Shown piece by piece: positions 20,899-48,147 of a stretch of 64,000 nt of DNA (within the stretch, counting starts at the first letter, position 1; each line of letters begins with the position of its first letter). The notes below the pieces were generated by a model. That model saw nothing but the letters and a program-made list of their open reading frames with translations. It was not told the DNA's origin and searched no databases. A program made the translations under genes and the position numbers. The stretch spans positions 702,448-766,447 of the forward strand of contig NZ_WJXZ01000014.1 of the NCBI RefSeq assembly GCF_009668025.1, written 5' to 3'. The stretch is from Larkinella terrae. GTDB taxonomy: Bacteria > Bacteroidota > Bacteroidia > Cytophagales > Spirosomataceae.

Positions 20899-20915
20899 TC
20901 AAGCATTGGATAAAA

Positions 20916-20985: not shown

Positions 20986-21023
20986 AATCTCTAACGTTCA
21001 AAGGCAATTTTAAGCCTAATTGA

Positions 21024-22523: not shown

Positions 22524-22547
22524 GGCAATGTTGTCTTTTTCAACGCG

Positions 22548-26078: not shown

Positions 26079-26154
26079 ACTTTTGATTGTTAAAATCTCG
26101 ACATTTTGACAATACAAATCCGACTCATCCGGCACGATGAGGAGGGATTGACCA

Positions 26155-26189
26155 GGGCGTTGAAACGGCACTTTCAACGCCCTTTTTTT
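26155..26189 (+). terminator. Perfect hairpin with + strand T tract inside the leader of a - strand SusC gene
   Basis: GGGCGTTGAAA (26155-26165) pairs with TTTCAACGCCC (26172-26182) around a 6-nt loop, followed on the + strand by seven T (26183-26189). It looks like an intrinsic terminator for + strand transcription, but all surrounding genes are on the - strand. In - strand RNA it is a leader hairpin with no U tract. Confidence 0.7.
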
Positions 26190-26257
26190 ATGCGGCACGC
26201 TAGTTCATACTGAAAATCTAGTTAAGGGTTTAGGAATGGTAACGATTTATAAATGAG

Positions 26258-27379
26258 TCAATTACAGCCTTTTCCGGTTACGACGACTTCACCGTTCACA
26301 ATTTCGTACTGCGCCCGAATGGCCCGGCAGGTCAGTTTCAGTTTTTCATACAGCGGTTCATCCGTGAGGGAAGCCGTCACCGGGCAATTTCCGAGCAGCG
26401 CGTGATCGTAATCAATCCGAATCGTATAGGTCTTTTCCAATTGGCTAAAAATCTCGCTGACCGGCGTTTCATCGTACTCAAAGGCCATTTCCTGAATTGT
26501 TCCGGACTTCTTCGGAGAAACCATCGGCACGGTATGGCTCACCACGTTAGCCTCCATCTGATCGGCTTCTTTCGAGAAAACCACCTCCTGACCAGGGTTT
26601 AAAACTAAGCCTTCCAGCCGCCGGTTTTTGGCCTGTTGAGCCGCTTCCGGGCTTTTCGTTTCGTACACAGACACCTTACCGGTTTTAACGGTAATCTGTA
26701 TACGTTTATCGTCGGGGAAAGCCTTCACGTTGAAGCTGGTACCCAGGACTTTCGTGACGATTTCGTTGGCAAATACAAAGAACGGCCGGTTTGGATCTTT
26801 GGCAATTTCGAAAAACGCTTCGCCCGAGAGGTAAATTTCCCGGACGCTCCTGCTGAAATACGTTGGATAGGACAATTTGCTTCCTTTTTTCAGTAGAACA
26901 GAGCTGCCATCCGGCAGCACAATCAGGCGGGTTGGCTTGGTCTGGTTTTCCACTTCGACCAGGTCGTATTTTTCGGTAGCCTGCTTCACCAGTTGGGCGT
27001 ATTCGGCTTTGTTTGCGCGTTGCTGCGTCACCAAATACCAGCCTCCCAAACCGACTAAACCGGCCAGAACGGCGGCTGCCCAATACCATCGTGAGAACAG
27101 CGTGCGAACGACCGTTTTAGGCGATTCATTGGCATCAATGCGGTCGAAAACCGACTGCTTTAAGGCCGCGATTTCAGTTTCAGACACGGCGGGTTCGGGG
27201 AGTTGATTAGCCGTCAAAACCAGTTGCCGGGCGGTTTCCACATCGCTCCGCTTGAAGGGATACACATCCAGCCAGTTTTGCCAGAACGTTTCGGCTTCCA
27301 GGTCGGTCGAAAGAACCCAGTGGATGAAATAATCGTCCGTCGCAAATTCCTCCGGTGTATAAGTCAAATAGTCGCTCAT
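26258..27379 (-). CDS. FecR-family anti-sigma factor
   Basis: A cytoplasmic N-terminal part of about 95 residues, with an FecR-N-like WQNWLDVYPFKRSDVETAR, binds sigma. One transmembrane helix (RWYWAAAVLAGLVGLGGWYL) is followed by a periplasmic FecR domain (LIVLPDGSSVLLKKGSKLSYP, REIYLSGEAFFEIAKDPNRPF, VLGTSFNVKAFPDDKRIQIT) and a C-terminal DUF4974-like part (AFEYDETPVSEIFSQLEKTY). In this family the periplasmic part reads the STN domain of the partner SusC and releases the ECF sigma factor. 373 residues is typical. The sigma gene is upstream and the SusC gene downstream, the standard order. Confidence 0.95.
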   Translation of the reverse strand: MSDYLTYTPEEFATDDYFIHWVLSTDLEAETFWQNWLDVYPFKRSDVETARQLVLTANQLPEPAVSETEIAALKQSVFDRIDANESPKTVVRTLFSRWYWAAAVLAGLVGLGGWYLVTQQRANKAEYAQLVKQATEKYDLVEVENQTKPTRLIVLPDGSSVLLKKGSKLSYPTYFSRSVREIYLSGEAFFEIAKDPNRPFFVFANEIVTKVLGTSFNVKAFPDDKRIQITVKTGKVSVYETKSPEAAQQAKNRRLEGLVLNPGQEVVFSKEADQMEANVVSHTVPMVSPKKSGTIQEMAFEYDETPVSEIFSQLEKTYTIRIDYDHALLGNCPVTASLTDEPLYEKLKLTCRAIRAQYEIVNGEVVVTGKGCN

Positions 27380-29928: not shown

Positions 29929-30043
29929 ACGATTAGTCGTAAAAATCAATCAATAATACGCTGGATAGTCGTGTCCTGATTTGGTAAACTTGCCAACGAC
30001 ACCAGCCGTTTGCCAACGGCACCGAAACCCGTCCGGTGGCGCT

Positions 30044-30051
30044 TATCTTTG
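30044..30051 (+). promoter_or_regulatory. -7 promoter element for the sensor kinase gene
   Basis: TATCTTTG matches TAnnTTTG exactly, 18 bases before the ATG at 30069. No TTTG occurs at the expected -33 spacing. The element lies downstream of the alternative start at 30036 and so supports 30069. Confidence 0.4.
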
Positions 30052-30068
30052 TGCTTTCGAAAACGTTC

Positions 30069-31760
30069 ATGACAAAATTCAAACCGTGGATTTGCTGTTT
30101 TTGCCTGATGGGGCTGCTCGCCCTGGCTGGCTGTCAGCCGGATTCGCTCGGCCCGGGACAGATCCGGCTGAAACTCGGCGATCAGCCCGAGTGGGCGGTT
30201 TTGGACTGGAACGATCGGGACTGGTCGGCCACCAACGGGACATCCCGACAACAAATCTTCTGGGTGCGCTTCCACTTCCGGCTGGACACGGCGACCAGAG
30301 TACGAAAACCGCTGGGGGTCCGCATCGTGGCCCTGGGTTCCTTCGATGCCTTCTGGGACGGCCGCTTGCTGGGGCACAACGGGCAGGTCGGGCCGACAAA
30401 AACCGCCGAGCGTCCCGGTCAGCATGCCACGTACTGGTATCTTTCCGGCCCCGACACCGAACCGGGTGAGCATGTCCTGGCGCTGCGGGTATCCAATTTC
30501 CACAGCCGCGCGGGCTGCAGTTTTTATAATGCCCGGATTGAGCATGAGCCGGACCGGGTACGGGCCTCGCTGCAAACCGTCGCCTGGATGTCCATGCTGG
30601 CGGGGGCGTTTCTGATCGGCGCGTTTTATTACCTGGTTTTGTCGCTGCACAACCGCCGGGAGCCTCTTTTTCGCCTGTTCAGCCTGATTTGCGGGCTTTT
30701 TTTCGGACTGCTTGTCGCCGAGTATGTGCCCTTCGTCTGGCCGTATCGCTATGATCTGCAAACACCCCGGCTGAAAGTGATTGGACTGCTGACGCTGAGC
30801 ATTTCGCTGCTGGTGCCTTCTTTTTTGAATCAACAATTCGCCCTCTTCAACCCCAAGCGCTTCACGGGCTTGTTGCTGCTACTCCTGCTGGGTATTTATC
30901 TCTACTTCTACGGACGGTATGATTTTACGGCCCAATTACTGAGTTTAACGATGGGCGTCAGTGCGTTGCTCATAGCAGTTTTGGCCGTGCAGCGAAAGCG
31001 AAAAGGTGCCGTCAGTATCCTCGTTTCGGTTATTTTGAGTGGGTTATGCGCTTTTCTTTTCTATTATGATTACAGTCTGTACCTCAGTTTTGGCTTTTTA
31101 CTGCTGACCATGCTCTACGGGCTGGTGATTCGCTCGCGGGAAATCGATCAGGCTTACCAGGAAACTTTGTTGTTGTCGGAGCGGCTGAAAACGGAATTGC
31201 TCAAAAAAAGTATCCAGCCTCATTTTCTGCTCAATACCTTAACCTCGCTCATCGACTGGATTGAGGAATCGCCCCGGCAGGGCGTAGTTTTCATTGAGGC
31301 ACTCGCGAGTGAATTCAGGTTGTTGAGCCAGATGGTCGATGTGCGGCTGGTGCCCATTACCCATGAAATTGAGCTTTGCAAGAGTCATCTGGCCGTCATG
31401 CGGTTTCGGAAGGAGATCAATTATGTTTGGGAGGATTCCGGCATTGATCCGACCGAGTCGCTTCCCCCGGCTTTGCTACATACCGTTCTGGAAAATGGGA
31501 TTACCCACAGTTTACCGCTGGCCGACGGAACGGTCCGGTTTCATCTTTCTTTTCAGCGAAATGAACACGATCGGCAGTATCAATTCCGCACTCAGGCCGT
31601 TAACCGAACCTCGGGTGACAAACCAAAAACCGGTACGGGATGGAAGTATATGAAAGCCCGGCTGACCGAAAGTTATGGTCGAAACTGGGCCTTGCGCTCG
31701 GAAGCAAACGAGGAGGGCTGGCTAACGCATTTAACGATTTATGCGAATTCTAATCATTGA
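30069..31760 (+). CDS. 7TM-type sensor kinase of the LytS/His_kinase family, lipoprotein-anchored
   Basis: The ATG at 30069 starts a lipoprotein signal (ICCFCLMGLLALAGCQ). Residues about 25-180 form a galactose-binding-like periplasmic sensor (ATRVRKPLGVRIVALGSFDAFWDG...) resembling 7TMR-DISM extracellular domains. Seven hydrophobic helices follow (about 185-375). The kinase part carries the LytS-type motif SIQPHFLLNTLTSLIDW, with the phospho-accepting histidine in PHF. The ATP-binding lobe (LLHTVLENGITHSLPL) is recognisable, but its N box is reduced. The response regulator gene overlaps its 3' end by 20 bases, so the two work as a pair. Ligand is unknown; a carbohydrate is plausible from the sensor fold. 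Confidence 0.87.
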   Translation: MTKFKPWICCFCLMGLLALAGCQPDSLGPGQIRLKLGDQPEWAVLDWNDRDWSATNGTSRQQIFWVRFHFRLDTATRVRKPLGVRIVALGSFDAFWDGRLLGHNGQVGPTKTAERPGQHATYWYLSGPDTEPGEHVLALRVSNFHSRAGCSFYNARIEHEPDRVRASLQTVAWMSMLAGAFLIGAFYYLVLSLHNRREPLFRLFSLICGLFFGLLVAEYVPFVWPYRYDLQTPRLKVIGLLTLSISLLVPSFLNQQFALFNPKRFTGLLLLLLLGIYLYFYGRYDFTAQLLSLTMGVSALLIAVLAVQRKRKGAVSILVSVILSGLCAFLFYYDYSLYLSFGFLLLTMLYGLVIRSREIDQAYQETLLLSERLKTELLKKSIQPHFLLNTLTSLIDWIEESPRQGVVFIEALASEFRLLSQMVDVRLVPITHEIELCKSHLAVMRFRKEINYVWEDSGIDPTESLPPALLHTVLENGITHSLPLADGTVRFHLSFQRNEHDRQYQFRTQAVNRTSGDKPKTGTGWKYMKARLTESYGRNWALRSEANEEGWLTHLTIYANSNH

Positions 31761-32439
31761 GGATGAAGCCCGGATTGCCGCCCGGATCGGGCGGTTTGTG
31801 CGGGAGATTCTGGGGCCGGAGCTAACCAGTCTGGCGAGTTGCGACGGCGTGGAGACCGGCACGGAGTATATTCGCAGCCACGGTATTGATCTGTTGTTTC
31901 TGGATTTGAACCTGAACGGACAGGACGGTTTTGACGTGCTGAAAAACGTGGTGGCCGAATCCTTTCATACGATTGTGGTTTCCGCATACACGGAAAAGGC
32001 CATCACCGCTTTTGAGTACGGCGTCCTCGACTTCATTGCCAAACCTTTCGCGATTGAGCGGGTTAAACTGGCGTTGGACCGGGTGAGCCTGAAACCGGCA
32101 ACTCCACCGCATCCGCTTAAATTCCTGGCAGTTAAGTCGCGGGGATTGATTCGGTTAATTCCAGTGGAGGAGGTGCTTTTTGTTCAGGGTTCCGGCGTTT
32201 ATTCCGAACTGCATTTGCAGAACGGAACGAAGGCGTTGCACGACAAATCCCTGGAAAAGCTTGCTCAATTGCTGCCCGCCAGCTTCGAGCGAATTCATAA
32301 ATCCTACCTGGCCGACAGCCGCTATTTTGCCGCGATCCAGGTTCAATCGGGTGGGCGCTATTCACTTCAGCTAACCACCGGCCAACAATTGCCCATCGGT
32401 CGGTCGCGGTATGAGCAGCTCAGGCGATATTTTAGTTAG
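31741..32439 (+). CDS. LytTR-family DNA-binding response regulator
   Basis: The receiver domain starts MRILIIEDEARIAARIG, with the phosphoacceptor in LLFLDLNLNGQDGF, a conserved T/S in IVVSAYTEKA and the K of FIAKPF. The C-terminal half is a LytTR domain (LKFLAVKSRGLIRLIPVEEVLFVQGSGVYSEL, ...FERIHKSYLADSRYFAAIQ). It overlaps the kinase gene by 20 bases. LytTR regulators bind 9-bp direct repeats spaced by about two helical turns. No such site was recognised near this pair, so its targets are unknown. Confidence 0.94.
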   Translation: MRILIIEDEARIAARIGRFVREILGPELTSLASCDGVETGTEYIRSHGIDLLFLDLNLNGQDGFDVLKNVVAESFHTIVVSAYTEKAITAFEYGVLDFIAKPFAIERVKLALDRVSLKPATPPHPLKFLAVKSRGLIRLIPVEEVLFVQGSGVYSELHLQNGTKALHDKSLEKLAQLLPASFERIHKSYLADSRYFAAIQVQSGGRYSLQLTTGQQLPIGRSRYEQLRRYFS

Positions 32440-34250: not shown

Positions 34251-36056
34251 ATGAATGGTACTTTCGTTTCTGTTAAAAACTTAACTTTCAGTAAGTGGCA
34301 AACTGGCCTAATTTATGCTATTCAACGAGTCTGGCGCTGGTGGTTAAGCGGTCATCCATCCTTCATGACAAGACAAAATCGATTCGGAATTTTAGCGGGA
34401 ATCGGACTGGTTACTGTCCTGGTAGCAGCCAGTCAATTTTTTTCAAAAATCAGCCCGGGAACTGTAACAGGTACGATTCCGGATTCGTTGGAAACCCTGA
34501 TCGGTGTATACAATCCCAACTATCAGCCTGATCGTCAGCCAGTAAAGGATTTGTACCACCTGGAAATTGTTCTGGACCGTTCAACCGATCCGGTGAACTT
34601 GCAAGACCGGTATTTCAAGATACAGGCAGACTTACCTTACCTGATTACGCTGAAAATTTCCGATTCCTTTGGGCGAAATAGCCTGAATGATCTTCGGGAT
34701 GGCAGTTTTGATGAAGCCATTCAGGCCCTCTGCGCTGAAATTTCGGCCATTAGCCAGCCGGTTTATCTCCGGTTGTGCCCCGAAATGGAAGTGCCGGTGC
34801 ATCGCTTCAATTGGCAATACCAATCGCCCGTCACTTATATTCAGGCTTTTCAACGGGTTTCCCGCCTTTGCAAGGCAAGGCTCCCCGCCGTACAAATGGT
34901 CTGGGCACCAGCCGGTTATCCGGGAGCTGATGAATACTGGCCCGGTGATAGCGCCGTTGACCTGATCTCGATTACCGTGGATAGCCCGTCCGAGCAACTG
35001 ACCACGGCTTATCCGCGCATTGCTGACCCGTACACGGCTATCCGGCGGAAACTGCATCGGTTGCGGTTTATGCCAAAAACCGTCCTGATTCTGGGGGATC
35101 AGTCGGTTAAAAAAAGCATTGACGCCGGGCAGTTAACCAAAACCTTAGCTCGTCTGCAGCAGGAAGAAACCGCTCTTTTTCCCACCTTGGGTTCTCCACG
35201 CGCGGCTGTCAGCGCGAAAGTCCGGACTGCCCGGCCGGAAATCGGCGTTTACGATCCCAAGGAGCTTTTAGTGAAAAATCAGGCTTTGCGGGCGGAGCAT
35301 CTGTTCTTCGATCTGGAAAGCATCCAAACCGGAACGTTCCGCAAAGCCCTGAACGCGACGCTGGCCCGGCGGCACGATGTGATTCTGACGATTGAACCCT
35401 GGCGGGACACCAAACCGCGCCGGGACACCTGCGTGCTGTGCAACGTGACCAACGGGGTGTATGACGAAGAATTTCGGGAAGTCTACCGGGCCATTTCCCG
35501 GACCCGGCAGACGGTTTACCTGCGGTTTGCCCACGAAATGGAGATTCCGATTCGTCGGTATGCCTGGCAAAGTCAGGACCCGATTCTGTACATCAGGGCC
35601 TACCGGTATTTCATGACATTTGATTCTGCCGGGAGCCGAAATATCAAAAAAGTGTGGGGACCCGCCGGGGACCGCGGTTCGATGGAGTGGTGGCCGGGTG
35701 CGGATGTGGTCGATTACATAAGTGTTGCCATTTACGGGCTGCCCGACAAAAACATTACCGATCCCCGGCAGCAGGAAACCTTTCGGGACATTTTTAACCG
35801 CAAATTTTACCGGATGCGGTTTTCCAGCAAACCGCTTTTTATTACGGAATTTGGCGTGAAAGGGCCGGAGGATTTTCAGCGGAAATGGCTGAACGACGCG
35901 GCCGACGTGATTCGAAACCAACCGGATGTGGTGGGCGTATGCTACTTCAACCTGGCGGACAATCCGAAGGTTTGGGGAAACATGCCCGCGCCGGACTGGA
36001 GCATTAGCCCGGCGACCTTCAACCACTTCGTCAGTCAGTTAAACCCGAACTTGTAA
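34251..36056 (+). CDS. Membrane-anchored protein with two tandem GH26-like domains, the first degenerate
   Basis: An N-terminal membrane segment (FGILAGIGLVTVLVAASQFF) anchors the protein; starts at 34251 or 34365 are both possible. Two homologous barrels follow. The first (about residues 80-300) has YLRLCPEMEVPVHRFNWQY and VWAPAGYPGADEYWPGD, but its expected nucleophile strand reads LILGDQS. The second (about 325-600) has YLRFAHEMEIPIRRYAWQS, KVWGPAGDRG...WWPGADVVDYIS and LFITEFGVKG, with plausible acid/base (HEME) and nucleophile (TEFG) glutamates of clan GH-A, closest to GH26. The stop overlaps the next start (TAATG), indicating translational coupling. The neighbouring GT2 synthase carries a third copy of the domain. 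A role in trimming or length control of a polysaccharide is inference. Confidence 0.75.
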   Translation: MNGTFVSVKNLTFSKWQTGLIYAIQRVWRWWLSGHPSFMTRQNRFGILAGIGLVTVLVAASQFFSKISPGTVTGTIPDSLETLIGVYNPNYQPDRQPVKDLYHLEIVLDRSTDPVNLQDRYFKIQADLPYLITLKISDSFGRNSLNDLRDGSFDEAIQALCAEISAISQPVYLRLCPEMEVPVHRFNWQYQSPVTYIQAFQRVSRLCKARLPAVQMVWAPAGYPGADEYWPGDSAVDLISITVDSPSEQLTTAYPRIADPYTAIRRKLHRLRFMPKTVLILGDQSVKKSIDAGQLTKTLARLQQEETALFPTLGSPRAAVSAKVRTARPEIGVYDPKELLVKNQALRAEHLFFDLESIQTGTFRKALNATLARRHDVILTIEPWRDTKPRRDTCVLCNVTNGVYDEEFREVYRAISRTRQTVYLRFAHEMEIPIRRYAWQSQDPILYIRAYRYFMTFDSAGSRNIKKVWGPAGDRGSMEWWPGADVVDYISVAIYGLPDKNITDPRQQETFRDIFNRKFYRMRFSSKPLFITEFGVKGPEDFQRKWLNDAADVIRNQPDVVGVCYFNLADNPKVWGNMPAPDWSISPATFNHFVSQLNPNL

Positions 36057-37441
36057 TGGGGAAGGAAACCGGACCGTTTCGGAGGAGAAGTTGCTGGTTT
36101 ACAGGTAAAACCGGCCGGTTGTTGTTTTTGCTGTTCTGGCTCCTGCCAGGTTGCGGTTTTCTCACCGGCTGTGGAGAGTCACCGTCTACCTCGTCGCGGG
36201 CGACAGCCACGGAGAACGCGGTCCGGATTTCCTGGGTGGGGGATTCGGCCGTACTTTCCCGGCGGGGGCAGCCTTATTTTATCCAGGGCGCCGGGGGCCA
36301 AAGCCGGTTAAAACGTTTAAAGGAGTGCGGAGGCAATTCGATTCGGATCTGGGACGACAACGACGCCGACCGGATTTTGAAGCAGGCGGATCAACTGGAT
36401 TTAACGGTTTTGTTTGGGTTGTGGGTCGAACGGGAGCGCGACGGGTTCAATTATTACGACGACCGGGCCGTCCGGAAACAAGTTGAGCAAATCCGCCAGA
36501 CCGTTCTAAAATACCGGCATCATCCTTCGCTGCTGATGTGGTGCCTCGGTAACGAGTGGAATTTAAAGGCCCGCAATATTTCAGTTTATGATGAAATCAA
36601 CCGGATTGCCAAAATGATCCATGAGCTGGACCCCGACCACCCCGTCACCACCGCCATTGGTACCAACCGGGCCCAAATTCTGCAGTTGATCAAGGAGCGC
36701 TGCCCGGAAATCGATGTCCTGTCCGTGAATGTTTACGGGGGCATTCACGAGCTACGGGGGCTTCTGGACGAAAGTGGATGGACCAAACCGTACCTCATTT
36801 CAGAGTTTGGCCCGCTGGGACATTGGGAGAGTAAGCAGACCGACTGGCAGATGCCGATCGAGCCTTTTAGCGACCGAAAAAGTGAATTTGTGCGAGCGAA
36901 TTATCAGAAATACATCCGTCCCCGGCCTAAAAACTGCCTGGGGTCGTACGTCTTTTTGTGGGGATACAAAGAGGAAGGAACGCATACCTGGTACAGCTTT
37001 TTTGACGCTAAAGGCCGGGAAACCGCCCTGGTCGGAACCATGCAGACCTTGTGGACGGGGAAACCGCCGGAGAATGTTGCGCCCGTTATTCATCAGATGC
37101 TGATTAATCAGCGGGAGGTGAGCTTCCAGGCGTTTTTGCCCTCGGATTCTCTTTATCGGGTTGAGGTCGTGGCTTCCGACCCGGACCGTGACAACTTAAC
37201 CTACTTCTGGGAAATCAGGCCCCAGGCCGAGCAGTGGCTGGAGGATGATTTCCACGATATGCCGCTGCTGGCGGAGGATGATCTGATCAAAACCGCCCAT
37301 CAGCCGGTTACATCTTTTCAGCTGCCGCGACTGCCGGGGGCTTACCGGCTTTACGTGTACGCGTACGATACTCACCATCACGTGGCTACTGCCAATGTGC
37401 CCATTCTGATTAGAGAGGACGATAAAAAGAGTCACCAATAG
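36056..37441 (+). CDS. GH2-like (clan GH-A) lipoprotein glycosidase with C-terminal PKD-like domain
   Basis: The start codon overlaps the stop of the upstream tandem GH26-like gene. A hydrophobic leader ends in LLPGCGFLTGCGES, a probable lipobox. The catalytic barrel shows KECGGNSIRIWDD, LMWCLGNEWNLKARN (acid/base glutamate in GNEW) and YLISEFGPLGHWE (nucleophile glutamate), the signatures of the GH2 TIM-barrel domain, but it lacks the two N-terminal sandwich domains of full GH2 enzymes. A PKD-like sandwich follows (YRVEVVASDPDRDNLTYFWEI, PGAYRLYVYAYD). It likely works with the partner gene on the same polysaccharide; specificity is unknown. Confidence 0.8.
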   Translation: MGKETGPFRRRSCWFTGKTGRLLFLLFWLLPGCGFLTGCGESPSTSSRATATENAVRISWVGDSAVLSRRGQPYFIQGAGGQSRLKRLKECGGNSIRIWDDNDADRILKQADQLDLTVLFGLWVERERDGFNYYDDRAVRKQVEQIRQTVLKYRHHPSLLMWCLGNEWNLKARNISVYDEINRIAKMIHELDPDHPVTTAIGTNRAQILQLIKERCPEIDVLSVNVYGGIHELRGLLDESGWTKPYLISEFGPLGHWESKQTDWQMPIEPFSDRKSEFVRANYQKYIRPRPKNCLGSYVFLWGYKEEGTHTWYSFFDAKGRETALVGTMQTLWTGKPPENVAPVIHQMLINQREVSFQAFLPSDSLYRVEVVASDPDRDNLTYFWEIRPQAEQWLEDDFHDMPLLAEDDLIKTAHQPVTSFQLPRLPGAYRLYVYAYDTHHHVATANVPILIREDDKKSHQ

Positions 37442-37456
37442 AAAACCGCCCTCGGA

Positions 37457-39952
37457 TTACTCGCGCAAAAGGCCCCGGATTTCGGGATACCGCTCCCGAA
37501 TGTGTTCCATCGCCCGGGTTTGCCAGCGAACCTGTTCATCGGTCAGACGCGTTTGCATCTTCGTAATGAAAACCGGTTTTTGATGGAGTTCGTTGGTCGC
37601 TTCACGGGTAAGCGTATGGCGATGCGGCTGATAGAGCGCTGAAAAGGAATGACTCTCTCCGTCGTTAGCCGTAGCAGGGTCATTGACGATTTCCAGGCCG
37701 ATCCAGTCAACGGACGAATGACCAGGGTAGTAGGAGAAAATGGTGTAGGGGTGTGCCGGGCACCACATCCAAACGAGATTTGTGGCTTTCTTTTGCTGGC
37801 CATACCGGGCCAGATACCGGAAAGCCTGCCTGTATTTCAGTAAAAGTTCGGTTTTTCGGGTTCCCCAGACCCGGGCTGTGTCATCAAAATAAGGAGCAAA
37901 CGAAACCACAACCGGGCGATTGTACCGCCTGATTTTCCCGGTAAGCCGATTGAGCAGCGGGTTGTATTGACCCCGTAATAGCTTATCCAGAAAAGCCCGG
38001 ATCGAAGAATCGGTTGGAGCGACGGCCAAATCGGGTTCCAGATACAACAGGGGGATTCCGTTCGTTTTCGGGTCCAGCCCTGGGCTGATTTTCAATCCAT
38101 TCTGTGTCGGTGACCAGCTTAGATGCTGAATCCGAATAGCTGGCTGGCCTGCCGTCTTCCGGTTGGTCGGAAACGAAGCGGAACCCGTGCCGTAATAAAA
38201 AGGCTGGGTGGTTGCGTAACGAACGTCGCCCGGTTTTTCATGAAAAGACTCGTGCAGGGTGTAACCCGCTAAGGTGACCGCCACTAAAATCAGGCCGATA
38301 AACACCGGGGTCGTGGCAGCCCGGGTGGAGCCGTAAATATCGTAGCGGAACCGCCAGACGTTCATTCCCTTCAACCCGATGACGGACCGGCGGAATCGGC
38401 TGTTTCGAAGGTATAACCGGAGCGTAGCGAGCAATTTTTCCTGTCCAATCAGCACGTTAACGCCGGTCACCAGCGCATTGATCAGGGCAAAGCCAATCAT
38501 CAGAACGACGTATTTATTACCGACCGAAAGCAAACCGTAGTAAAACAGGCAATACGCAATGGCCCCCACGGAAGCCAGGGTTAAAACCGCATTCGGGAGA
38601 CATAACAGGAAGTTGTTGCGCGGACGATCGTTTTTGGGAGTAGGGAGATAAGGGACTTCAACCCGAAAAACCGCATACACAAATCCCAGAAAGTAGACCC
38701 ACCAGGTGCCGCTGCTCAGCAGCCCGCCCACGATATGGAAGCCGACTTCGTGACTTTCAATGAGCCAGCGCTGGGCGTATTGCCGGGTCAGAAAGATTAG
38801 GAATAAGAGCGGAATGTAGGCCAGCGCAAAAACGTCGAGGTCAAGGCGGAGGGGCAGCTTCAGCAGGATCAGCGAGCAGATGGGAATCAGCAGATCGATG
38901 AGCTGAATCAGCCCGCTCAAATAATGGAAGGGCAGGGTAAAATAATGAACGCGTTGCCGCCACGTCATCCGGCTAAACAAGCGGGGGTAGGTAACCAGCA
39001 GGAGTTCAAACGTACCCCGGGCCCACTTCAGTTGTTGTTTGTAATAGGCTGATAATGTACTGGGAACCAGTCCGTAAGACAGCGGTTGGGGGACGTAGAC
39101 GGATTCCCAGCCCTGAGCGTGTAGCTGCATCGCCGTGTGCATAGCTTCCGACAGGCCCGCAGCGTGTCCCCCGATGGAATCAAGAGCTGCCCGGCGGAAC
39201 GTGCAGTTGGCACCGATGGCCTGGGCGGTTCCGTAATTGCTCATGCAGATCATCATTGGGCCGTAAAAGCTGTAGGTTTGCTGAGCCGCTCCGTACGCAA
39301 CCAGGCTTTCTTTCCGATTGTAATAGGCCTGAACGCACTGCACAAAACCGATCTGAGGGTCTTCAAAATACGGCAACACCTGATCCAGAAAGTTGGGTGC
39401 CGGGATGTGATCCGGGTCCAGAACGAGGCAGATTTCGCCGGTAGCCTGCTGTAGCGCATTGTTGATGTTCCCCGCCTTGGCGTCTTTTTTGACCGTCCGG
39501 GTAACGTGCCGAACGCCCAGCCGTTCGCAGACTTGCCGCAGGTAAGGGTCGTTGGCTTCGTCGCACAGGTAAGTCGTGTGCGGATACCGAATGGCCTGAA
39601 TGGTCTCCAGGGTTTTCACAATCATTTCATGCGGTTCTCCGGGGCAGAAGGTCGTCAGCACGTCGACGGTCCAGGTGCGGGTCGGGGTCGGAGCAATGGC
39701 CGGTATAACTTTCCAGTAATGGTACCACTCGTGTAAAGCCCGCAAGAGTTTATAACCGATCGAAATGCTGAGCAGAACAAACAGCCAGGTATACCCCCGG
39801 TTGTCCGGTTTAAAGTAAATCAGCACAAAACCACCCAGACAGGCAACGCCGGTAACAATCAACAGCCGAATAAAAAGGACATCCTTCGGTACGGATTTCC
39901 GTAAAGGGAGAGATTGCGATCTGTTTTTTAGCTGTGAACTGCTCCGAAACAT
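37457..39952 (-). CDS. Membrane GT2 synthase (BcsA/NdvB-like) fused to a C-terminal degenerate GH26-like domain
   Basis: Two N-terminal helices (residues about 25-70) precede a processive GT2 domain (about 90-330). This has the substrate motifs CDEAND (D131) and LDPDH (DPD 179-181) and the acceptor motif QQLKWARG (306-313). The catalytic TED position reads SEA (268-270), so the usual base aspartate is alanine, and QxxRW has lysine for arginine. Five or six more helices follow. From about residue 600 a periplasmic domain contains VWMWCPAHP and YYPGHSSVDWIGLEI, matching the GH26-like domains of the convergent gene, but both catalytic glutamates are lost (FAPYF and FITKMQ). Analogous GT2-GH17 fusions are known (NdvB). 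It may be a synthase with an export/binding domain or a pseudoenzyme. Confidence 0.82.
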   Translation of the reverse strand: MFRSSSQLKNRSQSLPLRKSVPKDVLFIRLLIVTGVACLGGFVLIYFKPDNRGYTWLFVLLSISIGYKLLRALHEWYHYWKVIPAIAPTPTRTWTVDVLTTFCPGEPHEMIVKTLETIQAIRYPHTTYLCDEANDPYLRQVCERLGVRHVTRTVKKDAKAGNINNALQQATGEICLVLDPDHIPAPNFLDQVLPYFEDPQIGFVQCVQAYYNRKESLVAYGAAQQTYSFYGPMMICMSNYGTAQAIGANCTFRRAALDSIGGHAAGLSEAMHTAMQLHAQGWESVYVPQPLSYGLVPSTLSAYYKQQLKWARGTFELLLVTYPRLFSRMTWRQRVHYFTLPFHYLSGLIQLIDLLIPICSLILLKLPLRLDLDVFALAYIPLLFLIFLTRQYAQRWLIESHEVGFHIVGGLLSSGTWWVYFLGFVYAVFRVEVPYLPTPKNDRPRNNFLLCLPNAVLTLASVGAIAYCLFYYGLLSVGNKYVVLMIGFALINALVTGVNVLIGQEKLLATLRLYLRNSRFRRSVIGLKGMNVWRFRYDIYGSTRAATTPVFIGLILVAVTLAGYTLHESFHEKPGDVRYATTQPFYYGTGSASFPTNRKTAGQPAIRIQHLSWSPTQNGLKISPGLDPKTNGIPLLYLEPDLAVAPTDSSIRAFLDKLLRGQYNPLLNRLTGKIRRYNRPVVVSFAPYFDDTARVWGTRKTELLLKYRQAFRYLARYGQQKKATNLVWMWCPAHPYTIFSYYPGHSSVDWIGLEIVNDPATANDGESHSFSALYQPHRHTLTREATNELHQKPVFITKMQTRLTDEQVRWQTRAMEHIRERYPEIRGLLRE

Positions 39953-39988: not shown

Positions 39989-40192
39989 AAACACAATGGG
40001 AAACTTCGTGCAAAAAGGATGCCTAATCTCCAGAGAAAAAGCGGCCAAAGCCAATTAAAATACCGCTTTTTAGACAGGATGAACGATCTGTTATAGTCGT
40101 TGGGAGAAAATTTATAGCCCTTTTTTCCTCCAGAACCCACCTTTGATGCCATCACCAACCGGGGTTCGATGGCCCTCATTACTTACAACCTT

Positions 40193-43100
40193 ATGAAAAA
40201 TCCTTTACGGTTTAACTCGTCCCGACCAGCCTGGGGATGGCACCTCCTTGGCCTTTTTTTTCTTTGCCAGATGACGACCTTTGCCCAGAGTAAAACCTGG
40301 TTTGTGAAACCCGACAGTTCGGCGGTGAACGACGGGCAATCCTGGAATACCGCTACGTCCCTGTTCACGGCGTTGAGCAAGGCAAAGGCGGGCGATCAGG
40401 TCTGGGCGATGCAGGGGATTTACTTCCTCTTTCGGAACAGTGAACTTGCCAACCTCAATTATCAGAACTTAAAAGCGCTGGCCAATCGGACGGTTCGCAT
40501 TCCGAGTGGTGTGAAAGTGTATGGCCAGTTTGCGGGGGATGAAAGCGAACTGGCGGCTCGGCACGGCAATGAAAGCCAGTTACGAAGTATCATCTACAAC
40601 TCCTATGTGGTGACCTTCCTCAATGCCAGCGCCGAGACGCTGCTGGACGGTTTTCATATTGTCGGTAATTATTCAGAACACTACTTTAATGCCGATCCCT
40701 ATTATGATCCCGAGGTGGGCGGCATGGTCACACCACCCACCTATTATGTGGACGTCTTCGGTTTGGGATCGACCTATGCAATCAGCTCGTTGAATCGGCT
40801 GGGAAACGCCATCATGAATGTGGCTTATCAGGGTACTTCGGAGCCAACAGTTACCAACTGCCGGATTGACTGTGCCGGTAGCAGCTGGTTCGGCGGCATG
40901 GTCACCAATCTGGCTTATCAGGCTGGTTCACACGCTAACTTGCGGATTCTCAACAGTGCTTTCGATAATGAGGTAGGTCAGTACACGAGAGGGGCCGCCG
41001 TCCTCAATTACGGCTATGATAATGGCGATGCGGATCTGTTGCTGTACAATTGCAGGATGGACAATTTTCAGCTTCTTCCCATCGCGGCACCGCCTTTTTT
41101 CGATGTGTCGAACGTTGTCTGTGCCCTGATGATCAATGCCGGCAATACCAACTCCACCACCCGCGTCCTGAACTGCCAGTTTGACGGTATCGGGGGGGCA
41201 CAAAGTATCCGACAACCCAGTGGTCCCCTTTATGTTCTGGCTAATATTGTGAACGGAGGGACGGCGGAAATGACGAACTGTTATCTGAATTTGTTTTACA
41301 ATACCTTGGGTGGCAAGGAGAACGGCTGGCCGGTGGGTTTTACGGCGGGCGTTACGCTCTCCCATACTATTTTTGGGCCCGGCATTCCCGATCACGATGT
41401 GAATGTCAACCCCCCACCCGGTCAGGGTTATAAGAACGGACCCATCGTTTACGGTGGCCCCACCGACCCGGCCCGCCACCTGATCAATACCGCCAACGGG
41501 ACGCCGACCTTGGGTTCCTGCAATAGCCTAACCACCGATCGGGGCGATAACACCCTACTTGAGCGCTGGCCCGATCTGGCGACGGTGCCCGGCCTGGCCG
41601 ACCGACTCAACAACGGCCCCATCGACATTGGCAATGCCGAATCCAATCCCAACGTCTACCTGCAAACCACCACCGGCGTTAACTCGCTGACCGTGAATAA
41701 AGGCGCTTCCGACGTCAACCTGTTGGGGAAATTCTGCGGAGGAACCGTCAACTGGAGCGCCAACAACGGCTCCAGCGGGCAGGGGGCCATCATTCCCGTC
41801 GCCACCGATCAGGTTGGAACCATCACGTATCAGGCCACCTGTACCACCAATAGTTGCACCAGCAATGCCTCCTCGGTCAGCGTCACCGTGCGGGATGCCA
41901 GTGTGGCTCCGCCCACCGACCTGATGTTTACCAACGACGGCCCGCTGACCTGCTCCAAAACGTTTGTCACGTTAACGGCATCGACCACCGCCACCGGCGT
42001 TGGGTACACCATTAAAAGCATCTATGGTACGGTTTCCAGCGGTTCCACCAATCCGTCCACATCGGTCAATCTGCCCGGCAGTTACACGGTGATCGCCACC
42101 AATGCCGGTGGTTCGGCCACGGCCGTCACGGTGGTGACTTCCCAAACCGCGCTGGATGCCCCCAACTGGTCGGCCAGTGGGTCATCCAACCTCAGCGTGA
42201 CGCAGGGAGCCCCGGCGGTTTCGCTCAATGCCACCAATTGCTCGGGCACGTTAACGTGGACGGGGCCGGGCAGCACTACCGGAACCGGCAGCGTCAGTGT
42301 GCCGACCTCGGCAACGGGCGTGTTTGTCTATTCGGCGGTTTGTCAGGTCGGCAGTTGCGTGAGTCCGGCAACGAGTGCCACCGTCACGGTGAATGCTCCT
42401 CCGGTCACAACCGGTAATTTTGAAGGGTTTTTAACGACGGTCAACTGCCAGGAAATGCGGGGTTGGGCCTGGGATCGTAACCGACCCAACACCCCGCTGA
42501 TCGTCGAATTCTTTGCTGAAAATACGTCCCTAGGAACCGTTGAAGCCAAAAACTTCCGCCCCGATTTGAAGGATGCCGGGAAGGGTAACGGCGAGCACGG
42601 CTATGTTTTCTCCACGCCCGAAGCGGCCAAAACCGGGTCAGAACTGCGGATTTCGGCCAAAGTCCAGGGTTCAGATTACCTGCTGAAAGGCTCTCCTCTC
42701 AAGTTAACATGTCCCGCCAGCAACACCGTGGTTAACCAGCCACCTGTCGCGCCAACCACCGGGCCACTGTCGGCCACCTTGGGGGTAGGGTTGACAACCA
42801 TCCTCCCAGCGTTCACCGATCCGGAAAGCCAACCCCTAACGTATGCGCTGAGTGGGTTGCCGGGCGGCCTCCAATTTACGGCTGCTTCCCGTACGCTCAG
42901 TGGCACACCTACGACAGAAGGTACGTTTCTACTGAGTTATAGCGCCAGTGACGGCCAGAAAACCGCTTCAGTGAATTTGACACTGGTCATCGCGCCGGGT
43001 TCATCGACTTCGCCGGTAGTAACGGGCAACTTTGAAGGTTTTCTCGATAAGGTCGAATGTGGCAGTATCCGGGGCTGGGTCTGGGATCGTAACAAACCCA

Positions 43101-43612
43101 ACAGCCCATTAACCGTGCAGTTTTTTGCCGACGGCGTGGCCATCGGAACCACGGAAGCCAACATCTACCGGGATGACCTGAAGAACGCGGGCAAGGGCAA
43201 CGGAGCGCATGCCTACAGCTTCATCACCCCGGTGGGTTTGAAGGATAATGTCCGTCGGTTGATCAGTGCGAAGGTGCTGGGCAGTACATATACCCTGAAG
43301 GAATCGGGTAAGGCGTTGCAATGCGCGCCCGCGTCCCGGTTATCGGCTGAAACCGGTTCGGAGCTTCAGGTGAATGTGCTCGGCAACCCGGTTTTGGACC
43401 AGATTGTGGTCGAGGTGAGGGGAGCCGAAGGGCAGCCCCTACAGTGGCAACTGACGGATGCCAGTGGCCGTTTGGTACACCAGCGTGAAATCAAAATAGC
43501 TCAATCGGTTGAGTGGCAGAGTTTTGCGGTGGGTCAGCAACCGGCGGGTTTGTTCTTTCTTCGGGTTACGAGCGGTTTGAAAAGCGTGACGACGAAAGTG
43601 CTAAAACGTTAA
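40193..43612 (+). CDS. Giant secreted beta-helix protein with RGWxWD modules and T9SS type A sorting tail
   Basis: The ATG at 40193 starts a signal peptide ending TTFAQ. Residues about 20-480 begin like DUF1565/right-handed beta-helix proteins (KTWFVKPDSSAVNDGQSWNTATSLFTALSKA) with scattered polymorphic coil repeats. Ig-like domains with repeated TNNSCTSNASSVSV and VGSCVSPATSATVTV elements follow. Then come two RGWxWD modules (42413-42715 and 43025-43330) flanking a He_PIG-like domain. The C-terminus (NPVLDQIVVEVRG...GLFFLRVTSGLKSVTTKVLK) is a T9SS type A sorting signal nearly identical to that of the repeat protein at 12405. Surface export is expected. A role as adhesin or glycan-binding shell is inference. 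Confidence 0.85.
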   Translation: MKNPLRFNSSRPAWGWHLLGLFFLCQMTTFAQSKTWFVKPDSSAVNDGQSWNTATSLFTALSKAKAGDQVWAMQGIYFLFRNSELANLNYQNLKALANRTVRIPSGVKVYGQFAGDESELAARHGNESQLRSIIYNSYVVTFLNASAETLLDGFHIVGNYSEHYFNADPYYDPEVGGMVTPPTYYVDVFGLGSTYAISSLNRLGNAIMNVAYQGTSEPTVTNCRIDCAGSSWFGGMVTNLAYQAGSHANLRILNSAFDNEVGQYTRGAAVLNYGYDNGDADLLLYNCRMDNFQLLPIAAPPFFDVSNVVCALMINAGNTNSTTRVLNCQFDGIGGAQSIRQPSGPLYVLANIVNGGTAEMTNCYLNLFYNTLGGKENGWPVGFTAGVTLSHTIFGPGIPDHDVNVNPPPGQGYKNGPIVYGGPTDPARHLINTANGTPTLGSCNSLTTDRGDNTLLERWPDLATVPGLADRLNNGPIDIGNAESNPNVYLQTTTGVNSLTVNKGASDVNLLGKFCGGTVNWSANNGSSGQGAIIPVATDQVGTITYQATCTTNSCTSNASSVSVTVRDASVAPPTDLMFTNDGPLTCSKTFVTLTASTTATGVGYTIKSIYGTVSSGSTNPSTSVNLPGSYTVIATNAGGSATAVTVVTSQTALDAPNWSASGSSNLSVTQGAPAVSLNATNCSGTLTWTGPGSTTGTGSVSVPTSATGVFVYSAVCQVGSCVSPATSATVTVNAPPVTTGNFEGFLTTVNCQEMRGWAWDRNRPNTPLIVEFFAENTSLGTVEAKNFRPDLKDAGKGNGEHGYVFSTPEAAKTGSELRISAKVQGSDYLLKGSPLKLTCPASNTVVNQPPVAPTTGPLSATLGVGLTTILPAFTDPESQPLTYALSGLPGGLQFTAASRTLSGTPTTEGTFLLSYSASDGQKTASVNLTLVIAPGSSTSPVVTGNFEGFLDKVECGSIRGWVWDRNKPNSPLTVQFFADGVAIGTTEANIYRDDLKNAGKGNGAHAYSFITPVGLKDNVRRLISAKVLGSTYTLKESGKALQCAPASRLSAETGSELQVNVLGNPVLDQIVVEVRGAEGQPLQWQLTDASGRLVHQREIKIAQSVEWQSFAVGQQPAGLFFLRVTSGLKSVTTKVLKR

Positions 43613-43817: not shown

Positions 43818-44504
43818 ATGTTAGATCAATACAAACAGCAACGCCCTTATCTGGTGGCGCTGGATTCCATTATTTTCGGCTTCGATGGCGAAAGCCTGAA
43901 GATATTACTGGTGAAACGGGGTGTGGAAGAAAAAACCTGGTCGCTGATGGGCGGCTGGTTGCAACCCGATGAAAGTCTGGGCCAGGCCGCAAGCCGGATT
44001 TTATTTGAACTAACGGGGCTGACCAACGTGTATCTGGAACAATTGCACGCCTTTGGCGAACCCAACCGGGACCCCATCGTCCGGACGGTTTCCGTCGCCT
44101 ACTTTTCACTGGTCAAAATTGCGGATTACGATTCGAAGATTTCGGGGGATTTTCAGGCGCACTGGTTTTCGATCTATGATCTTCCCCCGCTGCTTTTCGA
44201 CCACGGCGATATGGTCGATCTGGCCATCAAACGGTTGCGCTACAAAGCTGCCCAGCACCCGATCGGTTTTGAACTTCTGAATGAAAAGTTTACGATTCCG
44301 CAGCTCAAAAAACTTTACGACGCCATCTATAATACCGAATTCGATAAACGAAACTTCAGCCGCAAAATTCTCTCCACCAATCTGCTGATCAAACTGCCGG
44401 AAAAACAGAAAGGTTTTTCCCGGCGCGGAGCCTTCTTTTATACCGTCGATACGGAAAAATACCACCACGTGGCCGACTCCTTTCTGAACTTTATTCCCAG
44501 TTAA
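43818..44504 (+). CDS. Nudix-fold transcriptional regulator (NrtR/AraR-type), probable pentose regulator
   Basis: Residues about 10-140 form a Nudix domain and about 150-228 a winged-helix DNA-binding domain (FELLNEKFTIPQLKKLYDAIYNTEFDKRNFSRKIL), the architecture of NrtR-type regulators. The Nudix box begins normally (GGWLQPDES, residues 45-53), but the REUXEE core reads RILFEL, so two of three metal-binding glutamates are replaced by I61 and L65. Hydrolysis is therefore unlikely and ligand sensing likely. In Bacteroides the homologous AraR is a Nudix-fold regulator of arabinose use. The adjacent xylose isomerase gene suggests control of xylose or arabinose metabolism. It is preceded by a 205-bp region after a strong terminator, so it has its own promoter. 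Confidence 0.92.
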   Translation: MLDQYKQQRPYLVALDSIIFGFDGESLKILLVKRGVEEKTWSLMGGWLQPDESLGQAASRILFELTGLTNVYLEQLHAFGEPNRDPIVRTVSVAYFSLVKIADYDSKISGDFQAHWFSIYDLPPLLFDHGDMVDLAIKRLRYKAAQHPIGFELLNEKFTIPQLKKLYDAIYNTEFDKRNFSRKILSTNLLIKLPEKQKGFSRRGAFFYTVDTEKYHHVADSFLNFIPS

Positions 44505-46196: not shown

Positions 46197-46976
46197 CTAC
46201 GTCACCCGCGTGTAAAACGCCTTCAGGTTGTCCCGGTAACTCCGGCTCCATTTCAACTGCTGCCCCGTGGTCAGTCGGACGATGTATTCGCCGTTGAAGT
46301 GGGTTTCAATTTCGGCCACGTAATCCAGATTGACGATGTGCGAACGGTGAATCCGGACAAACGTTGCCGGATCTAGACGTGCCTCCAGGTGGGTCAGGCT
46401 GTCGTAAATCAAATACGGTTTCTGGCTGGTGTGCAGGGTGATGTAATTGCCGTCGGCGTCCAGATACCGGATGTCGTCGGTGTTAACCAGACTCATTCGA
46501 CCGGTTTCTTTCACCAGAATCCGGCGCAGATAAGCTCCCTCCGGCTGAGCGGTTTCATCGCGCAGCAGTTGCCCCAGCAGCGCATCGACCTGCGGCTGAG
46601 TTCGCTGTTGGGCCAGCCGCTCCTGCGCCCGGTTCAGCGCCTGATAAAAACGAACCTCGTTGAACGGTTTCAGGAGATAATCAATCGCGTTTACTTCGAA
46701 AGCCCGAAGTGCGTACTGATCGTAGGCCGTCGTGAAGACGACCATCGGCTGGTGGTACGACCAGATTTCCTTCATCACCTCAAAACCGTCCAGCTCGGGC
46801 ATCTGGATATCCAGAAAAATCAGGTCAGGTTTGTGCTGCAAAATCTTCAGAACCGCTTCGGTGCCGTTGGCGGCTTCGTCCACAATCGCAAGGCTTGGCA
46901 CGGTTTGCAGCAGGGTGCGAATGGCCTGCCGGGCCAGAATTTCGTCGTCAATGATGAGCGAGCGGTAAGGATTCAT
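46197..46976 (-). CDS. LytTR-family response regulator
   Basis: The receiver domain begins MNPYRSLIIDDEILARQAIRTLL, with the phosphoacceptor in LIFLDIQMPELDGFEV, the conserved VVFTTAYDQYA and K in YLLKPFNEV. The C-terminal LytTR domain (YLRRILVKETGRMSLVNTDDIRYLDADGNYITL, FVRIHRSHIVNLDYVAEIE) is complete. Its start codon lies inside the sensor kinase gene (29-base overlap), so the pair is translationally linked. A 21-bp-spaced direct repeat upstream of the divergent lipoprotein operon is a possible target. Confidence 0.95.
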   Translation of the reverse strand: MNPYRSLIIDDEILARQAIRTLLQTVPSLAIVDEAANGTEAVLKILQHKPDLIFLDIQMPELDGFEVMKEIWSYHQPMVVFTTAYDQYALRAFEVNAIDYLLKPFNEVRFYQALNRAQERLAQQRTQPQVDALLGQLLRDETAQPEGAYLRRILVKETGRMSLVNTDDIRYLDADGNYITLHTSQKPYLIYDSLTHLEARLDPATFVRIHRSHIVNLDYVAEIETHFNGEYIVRLTTGQQLKWSRSYRDNLKAFYTRVT

Positions 46977-48147
46977 CGTATTCAGTTGTTAGCGAAAATA
47001 AACAGGGAAGGGTGAGCGCAACGGTGGTGCCGTTGCCCGGTGGCTGCACAAACGTCAGGCGGGCCTGATCGCCGTAAGCCTGCTGAAGCCGGGAGCGGGT
47101 GTTGCTGAGTCCCAGTCCGTTACCAGCGGTTTTTCGTTTCCGGGGCTGATTGCCGACCCCGTTGTCGAACACTTCGAGCAGCAGGCAGTCATCGACCCGC
47201 CGGGCCGCCACCCGAATCCGGGCGCAGCCGGTCAGATCGGCAATTCCGTGGGTAATGGCATTTTCGACCAGCGGTTGCAGAATCAGTTGGGGCACCAGAC
47301 TTTCTTCGGCGCCGGGGTCGATGTCGTATTCGATCTGCAACCGATCCTGAAACCGGATTTGCTGAATGGTCAGGTACTGCTGCGTCAGTTTTAATTCCTC
47401 CCGAAGCGTCAGAAAATTATCGTCCTGATGGGCCAGCACGCCCCGCAGTAAATCGCTCAGCGCGGTTACCATGTCGATGGCCTTGCGGTTGTCGTGTTGC
47501 AGCATCAGGCTCACGATCGCGTGGTGCGTGTTGAACAGAAAATGCGGATTGAGCTGCATTTTCAGCGCCTGAAGCTGGGCGTCGGTGAGTTGGGCCTTTA
47601 ACTGCGAATTGGTCAGCTCGGTCGCCAGGTGTTGCTTTTCGAGCTGCTGGTAGCGGTTGTCGAATAAAAAAATGTTGTACAAAACCAGCACCAGCAGGTA
47701 CAAGGAGGTTCCCCAACTGTATTCGCCGACAAACCATTTCAAAATGTTGTCCCAGGGCAATTCCTTCCCGGTTTCCCACCTGTAGAGTGGCCAGATCATC
47801 AGGTATTCGATGGAGCGCACAGTGAATGTCAAAACAGTAAAGGCCAGTAAATGAATGAGCAGGGTTCGGGCAAAGAGCGGTTTGGTTTGCTGCCGGTTCA
47901 GGGGAAAAGACTGAGCCATATACAGCAGCAAGGGCGTGCAGAGCATCCACAAAACCCAGTGGAGGACCCATTGTGCCCAGCCGGAAAACAGCATTTGGTA
48001 GGGGCTGACCCAACTGTTGAGACTGAATTCGATGAGGGTAATACCCGCCTGAAAACTCCAGAACAGAATAATGTATTTCCAGATTCGATGGGACGAACAG
48101 GGCAAACCTGGCGCCTTCTCAATGAAAGGGTGGAGTAATTTCTTCAT
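46948..48147 (-). CDS. LytS-type sensor histidine kinase
   Basis: Four hydrophobic helices in about the first 165 residues (e.g. YIILFWSFQAGITLIEFSL, LLIHLLAFTVLTFTVRSI) form a membrane domain with almost no periplasmic loop. A short coiled coil (LEKQHLATELTNSQLKAQLTDAQLQALKMQ) leads to the His_kinase motif LNPHFLFNTHHAIVSLML, with the phosphoacceptor histidine, and an ATPase domain (LVENAITHGIADL; FDNGVGN; GNGLGLSNTRSRL). The ATG at 48147 is preferred to a TTG two codons earlier. It pairs with the overlapping response regulator. With no large sensor domain, it probably reads a membrane or intramembrane cue. Confidence 0.93.
   Translation of the reverse strand: MKKLLHPFIEKAPGLPCSSHRIWKYIILFWSFQAGITLIEFSLNSWVSPYQMLFSGWAQWVLHWVLWMLCTPLLLYMAQSFPLNRQQTKPLFARTLLIHLLAFTVLTFTVRSIEYLMIWPLYRWETGKELPWDNILKWFVGEYSWGTSLYLLVLVLYNIFLFDNRYQQLEKQHLATELTNSQLKAQLTDAQLQALKMQLNPHFLFNTHHAIVSLMLQHDNRKAIDMVTALSDLLRGVLAHQDDNFLTLREELKLTQQYLTIQQIRFQDRLQIEYDIDPGAEESLVPQLILQPLVENAITHGIADLTGCARIRVAARRVDDCLLLEVFDNGVGNQPRKRKTAGNGLGLSNTRSRLQQAYGDQARLTFVQPPGNGTTVALTLPCLFSLTTEYDESLPLAHH

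Follow-up and report, generated by a model that had tools for sequence, protein, structure and literature searches.

Bacterial cellulose synthase BcsA has a hydrolase partner, BcsZ, and in the OpgH system a synthase of glycosyltransferase family 2 (GT2) and a periplasmic glucan hydrolase (OpgG/OpgD) shape the osmoregulated glucan. The NdvB and "Orphan" proteins of Pseudomonas are BcsA-like membrane GT2 synthases with a fused periplasmic TIM-barrel hydrolase of family GH17, and the product proposed for them is a beta-1,3-glucan that is processed at the channel exit (PMC10237404). Family GH158 belongs to clan GH-A, and its characterised Bacteroides member, BuGH158, is an endo-beta-1,3-glucanase with catalytic residues N136, E137 and E220, located in a laminarin polysaccharide utilization locus (PUL; PMC7157763). 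We investigated a cluster of three genes in a 64,000-nucleotide stretch of the genome of Larkinella terrae (contig NZ_WJXZ01000014.1, positions 702,448 to 766,447), hereafter the window. Gene 1 encodes a double-GH26 protein, gene 2 a GH158 lipoprotein and gene 3 a membrane GT2 synthase with a C-terminal GH26-like module. A sequence-only reading of this DNA had suggested an undescribed system for polysaccharide synthesis and trimming. The observation was confirmed and turned out to be more interesting than its wording: soil and water Bacteroidota carry a module whose core consists of two genes, the synthase and the GH158 enzyme, with an optional third, and no description of a GT2 fused to GH158 or GH26 was found in the open-access literature searched (subscription journals and CAZy lay outside the search). 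The polymer, the gene set and the notion of a fixed dead module had to be revised. We consider it fairly probable that the cluster is one instance of a Bacteroidota module for the synthesis and trimming of a beta-1,3-containing glucan at the inner membrane.

Co-occurrence of the synthase and a GH158 enzyme

Gene 2 (36056..37441, + strand) encodes a lipoprotein of 461 amino acids with the lipobox cysteine at position 39. It had been called GH2-like; this assignment was rejected because the GH158 matches were far stronger, extending over nearly its full length to the solved members 9oro (1e-87, residues 67-452) and 6pal (9e-68, residues 60-452). The catalytic residues of the family are retained as Asn166-Glu167 and Glu250. 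Considering that gene 2 is GH158 and not GH2, the predicted polymer becomes a beta-1,3-containing glucan. Within the stand-alone set, both catalytic glutamates were intact in 90 of the 91 GH158 proteins, the sole exception being a piece of the broken synthase at locus L058. In that genome (G076) the synthase and GH158 are both split into several frames side by side, as if decaying together.

All three open reading frames (ORFs) lie where they had been placed, and the window's genome contains one close GH158, one double-GH26 protein and one close synthase, all of them at this locus. Among 119 relatives, the window's genome included, the synthase (E<=1e-100) was found in 26 genomes, GH158 (E<=1e-20) in 28 and both in 26 (Fisher p 3e-24, not corrected for kinship). 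At E<=1e-20 there were 30 synthase matches, the additional four being one remnant of 96 residues (G004) and three distant GT2 proteins with 27% identity. Two genomes had GH158 without the synthase: G100, whose copy falls in a clade of GH158 without synthase linkage, and G072, which is 71% complete and whose GH158, on a 3.2-kb contig, groups in the set holding the window's enzyme. Both genes were present in 5 of 9 genomes of the window's genus; the other 4 were without GH158, and one of these had a synthase remnant. This remnant (L059:9206-9655; 96 residues matched, 74% identity) is a case of co-loss. In 296 genomes drawn evenly across the phylum, the synthase was found in 13, GH158 (E<=1e-30) in 33 and both in 11 (p 4e-10, and 2e-7 without the window's family); the two genes stood side by side in all 7 loci newly retrieved among these 11 genomes, the loci of the others having been inspected before.

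Adjacency was then quantified in a larger set. Scanning named genomes (591 matches to the pattern, 579 relatives, the best 80 kept) yielded at least 79 loci from Spirosoma, Fibrella, Fibrisoma, Pontibacter, Hymenobacter, Chitinophaga, Dyadobacter, Larkinella and others. Together with 28 earlier loci these made 107, and after removal of 10 repeats (synthases with identical residues 61-260) and of 3 loci without a scorable synthase ORF, that is, one of over 600 bits (L058 and L085, each in two frames, and the remnant L059), 94 loci remained besides the window. A GH158 ORF lay within 3 kb of the synthase in 90 of the 94 loci and within 200 bases in 80, on the same strand upstream in 39 cases, divergent in 33 and convergent in 18. 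Chitinophaga japonensis (L095) carries two GH158-synthase pairs in tandem. When the ORFs of at least 120 amino acids within 9 kb were clustered over the 95 loci, a single universal cluster resulted, comprising the synthase and GH158, which were joined via the fused modules; the next-largest neighbour family, a LytTR regulator, occurred at 20 loci. No exporter, BcsB/BcsC or SusC/D family was conserved beside the synthase in this clustering, in which smaller or faster-evolving genes could be missed. Pfam names were assigned to the neighbours in the window only. A chance neighbourhood was rejected on the co-occurrence in relatives and across the phylum and on the adjacency in the loci.

The earlier expectation that three genes travel together was borne out for the synthase and GH158 in 26 of 26 genomes and failed for the double-GH26 protein, which was found in 7 of the 119 genomes, the window's own among them, and all 7 belong to the 26 with the synthase. 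The "three genes" are therefore really two plus one that is optional.

Could the locus be catabolic, with GH158 and GH26 degrading external beta-glucan for food and the GT2 an unrelated neighbour? The characterised Bacteroides GH158 enzymes are indeed PUL laminarinases (PMC7157763). However, the synthase and GH158 occur together in all 26 synthase genomes of the relatives and in 11 of 13 across the phylum, and SusD-like genes were seen in just 15 of 108 scanned stretches, a total that includes the window and the duplicate loci. Moreover, 43 of the 96 distinct synthases themselves carry a fused GH158-like module of more than 300 residues, dead or live. Seven GH158 proteins without synthase linkage (L143-L149) form a clade of their own (SH-aLRT 97), so that sequence distinguishes the two kinds of GH158. 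In the window no SusC/SusD pair adjoins the cluster, the SusC gene ending 8.1 kb and the SusD gene 11.7 kb before gene 1. The PUL reading was rejected because SusC/D are not conserved beside the cluster, and we regard a catabolic locus as very improbable.

The GT2 domain and its catalytic base

Gene 3 (37457..39952, - strand; 831 amino acids) is convergent with gene 2, from which it is separated by 15 bases. Its BcsA/CelA-like GT2 domain (38435..39697, - strand; residues 86-506) contains the motifs CDE, DPDH and QQLKW. The best PDB matches of the GT2 profile were BcsA, and TIGR03030, the model for bacterial cellulose synthase, matched at E 3.4e-49, but with 167.5 bits against a cut-off of 699.1. 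No PilZ domain was matched in gene 3 by Pfam up to E 1. The cellulose synthase signature D, D, D, QxxRW is departed from in its last element, which reads QQxKW in all 96 synthases; its first aspartate is present in 94 and its third in 95. BcsB/BcsC neighbours are likewise not conserved, no family besides the synthase and GH158 occurring in more than 20 of the 95 loci. A cellulose synthase proper was thus rejected on the cut-off, PilZ and neighbours. Plasmid and phage collections gave only GT2 matches below 60% identity, those shown being mostly annotated as cellulose synthase.

The product might instead be a secreted exopolysaccharide, similar to cellulose, curdlan or a mixed-linkage glucan, with its exporter encoded elsewhere and GH158 in the role of BcsZ. 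The likeness of the GT2 domain to BcsA and its TIGR03030 match agree with this, and synthase-associated hydrolases are a common theme. Against it stand the absence of any conserved export gene among the ORFs clustered in the 95 loci, the missing PilZ domain and the TIGR03030 score far below the cut-off. We find this explanation unlikely. A strict lipobox pattern fits only 39 of the 91 GH158 proteins; by eye, several (e.g., L102, L111, L112 and L117) have an apparent uncleaved inner-membrane anchor in place of a lipobox, and others resemble plain signal peptides. The uncleaved anchors agree with a product that stays in the periplasm or envelope. The number of acidic residues at +2 to +6 averaged 1.08 in SusD controls (13 of 16 with a recognised Cys) and 0.75 in GH158 (65 of 91); since controls and GH158 were not clearly separated, a call between surface and periplasm from the lipoprotein export signal was dropped.

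The window's synthase is peculiar in one respect that the sequence-only reading had overlooked. The aspartate of the ED motif is the catalytic base (PMC6821405, PMC10237404). In the window the motif reads SEA, the codon at 39143..39145 (- strand) being GCT for Ala270; alanine occurs here in the window alone, and it is the window's one departure from 130 columns of the GT2 region that are conserved in at least 96% of the synthases. Either this copy has recently lost its polymerase activity or the base was miscalled. The first option would make the window's cluster a dead copy, in which the base of the GT2 is gone and only the hydrolases still work. The solitary nature of the departure at so conserved a position speaks for it, whereas the other 129 columns are intact, so the decay would be very recent, and a single-base sequencing error fits equally well. 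We therefore see the dead copy as a serious possibility, though the less probable one. A second genome of the species was not found in the collections used.

Fused and stand-alone GH26-like domains

The fused module (37460..38215, - strand; residues 580-831) lies C-terminal to the last hydrophobic segment of the synthase (residues 543-570). Pfam GH26 matched at 1.7e-8 (residues 647-804), the module's profile found endoglucanase H at 5.6e-14, and hhalign paired the module with domain 2 of gene 1 at a probability of 99.0 (E 8.6e-18); these matches show the module to be GH26 by descent. Neither the catalytic acid nor the nucleophile is present, Tyr688 and Lys798 (motifs "PYFD" and "TKMQ") occupying the two glutamate positions. 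Sequence searches of the domains, which had been proposed as a check, gave GH26 matches, and the picture of a convergent membrane GT2 whose C-terminal GH26-like domain has both glutamates replaced proved accurate. The dead module does not, however, represent a fixed design; it belongs to a graded series that runs from catalytic-looking to absent, of which it is one stage. By length and HMM (hidden Markov model) score, the 96 distinct synthases comprised 42 with GT2+GH26+GH158 (the long form), 6 with GT2+GH158, 20 with GT2+GH26 (the window's type), 1 with GT2+GH26 and both glutamates, 11 degenerate forms whose module is unrecognisable or partial, and 16 without a module, these being Pontibacter. 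Both GH26 glutamates were retained in 28 of the 42 long forms and in none of the window's clade or of the degenerate forms; the window's clade has lost the nucleophile in 20 of 20 members and kept the acid in 11.

In the GT2 tree, the window's type, the module-free and the degenerate synthases formed one clade each (SH-aLRT 100, 100 and 99), while the long form was spread around these three, which fits loss from a catalytic ancestor. The 8 fused GH158 modules with both glutamates belong to lineages branching near the root of the tree as drawn (quick-mode trees under LG+G4, with an uncertain root and some long branches). In the ancestor the fused hydrolase domains probably were catalytic; they would later have been disarmed or lost, with the cutting left to the stand-alone enzymes. 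A partnership without fusion was observed in another family of the order, where at L165 (7184-11698) a TPR protein precedes a divergent GT2 synthase, and the GH26 behind the synthase is separate, looks catalytic and has a hydrophobic segment at its N-terminus. This arrangement reads as an unfused version of the GT2-GH26 partnership.

The fused GH26-like module might also be a decaying relic without function. In keeping with this, it is absent from 16 synthases and unrecognisable or partial in 11 others, and its ratio of nonsynonymous to synonymous substitution rates (dN/dS) exceeds that of the GT2 domain, pair by pair, by a factor of 1.8 to 4.3. Yet when five close pairs from the window's clade were compared, the dead module had a dN/dS of 0.10-0.16 in every pair, against 0.04-0.08 in the GT2 domain; the GH158 values were 0.04-0.10, with one pair saturated (L124 and L135 are without fused GH26, and their row for residues 565-870 does not describe GH26). 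Constraint on the dead module is thus looser than on the working enzymes and far from neutral, which supports a non-catalytic role over a relic. In addition, 20 columns of alignment A5 are invariant, and the module's frame is open in the 20 members of the window's clade as collected. A relic is therefore improbable in our view, and the dead modules probably hold or guide the chain.

Gene 1 (34251..36056, + strand) overlaps gene 2 by one base in TAATG, as had been noticed. Its 601 amino acids comprise two GH26-like domains behind a single N-terminal membrane anchor, the hydrophobic segment of residues 43-69; phmmer, profile matches and residues agree with the earlier description of an anchored protein whose first domain is without the nucleophile. 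Domain 1 (34476..35225, + strand) is degenerate. Glu178 is retained in "CPEME" and the preceding His is lost, "ILGDQ" replaces the nucleophile motif TEFG, and glutamate is found at the nucleophile position in 0 of 14 alignable copies. Its phmmer match was the beta-1,3-xylanase XYL4 (5.6e-4), weaker than the match of domain 2 to Clostridium thermocellum endoglucanase H (E 5.6e-5). Domain 2 (35226..36053, + strand) looks catalytic: His428-Glu429 ("HEME") and Glu533 ("TEFG") are retained, its profile found endoglucanase H at 2e-14 with HE and TEFG aligned on that enzyme's own motifs, and both glutamates were present in all 14 copies of over 500 amino acids. We take the PDB endoglucanase H to be the GH26 lichenase CtLic26A; an enzyme of that name is called a GH26 lichenase in a reference title in PMC13390465. 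A GH26 partner ORF near the synthase was found in 16 of the 94 loci, counting L118 (two frames), L120 (a contig-end piece) and L093 (a weak match), and within the window's synthase clade of 20 in the window's locus only. The double-GH26 protein is an optional third part and not core.

A model of the module and its comparison with known systems

Based on these results, we propose the following working. The GT2 domain, from its family, would polymerise UDP-glucose on the cytoplasmic side and pass the chain across the membrane by a channel of its own, in the manner of BcsA and curdlan synthase. The chain would exit beside the fused GH26-like module. If the last hydrophobic segment crosses the membrane outward, this module must face the periplasm, and as it is without the residues for hydrolysis, its most likely role is to bind, guide or space the chain as it emerges. 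Trimming the chain to length or clearing stalled polymer may then fall to the GH158 lipoprotein next to it and to domain 2 of the anchored GH26 protein, if the locus has one; both have their catalytic residues in place and would be expected to cut. The weakest step is the last, in which the product would be periplasmic or envelope-bound and not a capsule; this is weakly favoured because no exporter gene is conserved beside the module. As to the polymer, we infer that a beta-1,3- or beta-1,3;1,4-glucan is the best guess, because beta-1,3-glucan is the target of GH158 and the closest GH26 of solved structure is a lichenase.

Several points weigh against the proposed glucan module. The substrate is deduced from family membership. 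GH26 holds mannanases and beta-1,3-xylanases besides the lichenase, so that a non-glucan polymer is possible, and GH158 is also a catabolic enzyme, as with BuGH158 in the laminarin PUL (PMC7157763). The periplasmic location, weakly indicated, is read from missing neighbours. QQxKW in place of QxxRW means that donor handling may differ from that of BcsA, and the window's synthase, being without the catalytic base, may not polymerise. As for co-occurrence, 2 of the 13 phylum synthase genomes (G307 and G379, with a divergent synthase) are without GH158, 4 of the 94 loci (L060, L091, L099 and L106) have no GH158 ORF nearby, and none is present in the 12-kb contig end of L085, which was excluded before the 94 loci were counted. 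A dead module is not family-wide, both glutamates being kept in 28 of 42 long-form GH26 modules and in 8 of 43 fused GH158 modules of more than 300 residues. Among these 43, 6 keep one glutamate and 29 neither, with an alignment gap at the nucleophile in 26 and at the acid in 4, where "lost" means "not alignable"; an independent alignment of 12 fused GH158 modules showed no Glu-Gly motif at the nucleophile's place and Glu there in three (L043-L045). The synonymous rate of the dead module exceeds 1 in three of the five pairs, whose ratios are rough. Finally, 4 of the 14 copies of domain 1 of gene 1 have a glutamate two residues past the expected nucleophile.

Elsewhere in the window, an ordinary PUL with GH97, SusD and SusC genes lies at 18901-26198 (- strand), 8-15 kb from the cluster, beside a FecR-type protein (26258-27379). 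Two pairs of histidine kinase and LytTR response regulator genes occur, one on each flank (30036-32439, + strand; 46197-48153, - strand). Adjoining the synthase is a gene for a protein of 1147 amino acids with a type IX secretion system sorting tail (40169-43612, + strand), which was outside any family conserved beside the other synthases in the clustering of 95 loci, followed by a regulator with an NrtR/AraR-like Nudix domain according to Pfam (43818-44504, + strand). Scans found 4 promoters against 4.2 expected and 13 terminators against 8.3, and neither settles the operon structure.

If the glucan module is real, Bacteroidota possess a glucan synthase module that is self-contained and readily escapes notice, because the synthase resembles cellulose synthase and GH158 and GH26 resemble food enzymes; the hydrolases would be listed as catabolic in genome annotation. 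The synthase-fused hydrolase, which in many lineages is dead and yet retained under selection, points to an undescribed mode of making and trimming envelope glucan, and the natural series from catalytic through dead to absent fused hydrolase can probe what such a domain does where the chain leaves a polysaccharide synthase. Both questions are accessible in culturable genera such as Spirosoma, Chitinophaga, Dyadobacter, Pontibacter and Hymenobacter. We tentatively suggest, as an idea that is rather more doubtful than the module itself, that synthase-fused hydrolases of both GH26 and GH158 barrels turned into non-cutting chain guides in several lineages while stand-alone copies went on cutting, and that the product is a periplasmic beta-1,3-containing glucan, this phylum's functional counterpart of the osmoregulated periplasmic or cyclic beta-glucans.

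Among known systems, OpgH with OpgG/OpgD similarly pairs a GT2 synthase with a hydrolase, and differs in its beta-1,2 linkage, in the hydrolase family and in having no fusion. BcsA with BcsZ shares the GT2 fold, the DxD and ED motifs and a cognate hydrolase; in contrast, the module here is without PilZ and conserved BcsB/BcsC neighbours, has QQxKW for QxxRW, and combines a hydrolase of another family with a fused barrel. Of the solved GH26 enzymes, CtLic26A comes closest to the live domain 2 and likewise to the dead fused module; it is a degradative enzyme, whereas the GH26 here is membrane-anchored beside a synthase. BuGH158 (6pal) and GH158(Pro) (9oro) are homologous to gene 2 over nearly the full length, including the catalytic Asn-Glu and Glu, but BuGH158 belongs to a catabolic PUL with SusC/D and the GH158 of gene 2 to a synthase. 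Curdlan synthase CrdS and the mixed-linkage glucan synthases BgsA and RiGT2 are likewise GT2 enzymes; their products, beta-1,3- or beta-1,3;1,4-glucan, are what GH158 and lichenase-type GH26 act on. We compared them by their descriptions, the consulted parts of which mention no fused hydrolase module (PMC6821405, PMC10374906). A Wzx/Wzy-type exopolysaccharide cluster of Actinoplanes contains a GH26 gene, and its authors, writing in 2026, were aware of no earlier characterisation of a Wzx/Wzy cluster that involves GH26; its GT2 is of another kind than the synthase here (PMC13390465). The comparison with NdvB made by the sequence-only reading serves well as an analogy of working, but not as membership, because there is no GH17 fused to the GT2 and a C-terminal GH26 is found instead. 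In NdvB and Orphan the GH17 domain precedes the GT2 and is proposed to cut and cyclise the chain (PMC10237404), whereas the module described here carries GH26-like and/or GH158-like domains after the GT2, often non-catalytic, together with a separate GH158 enzyme.

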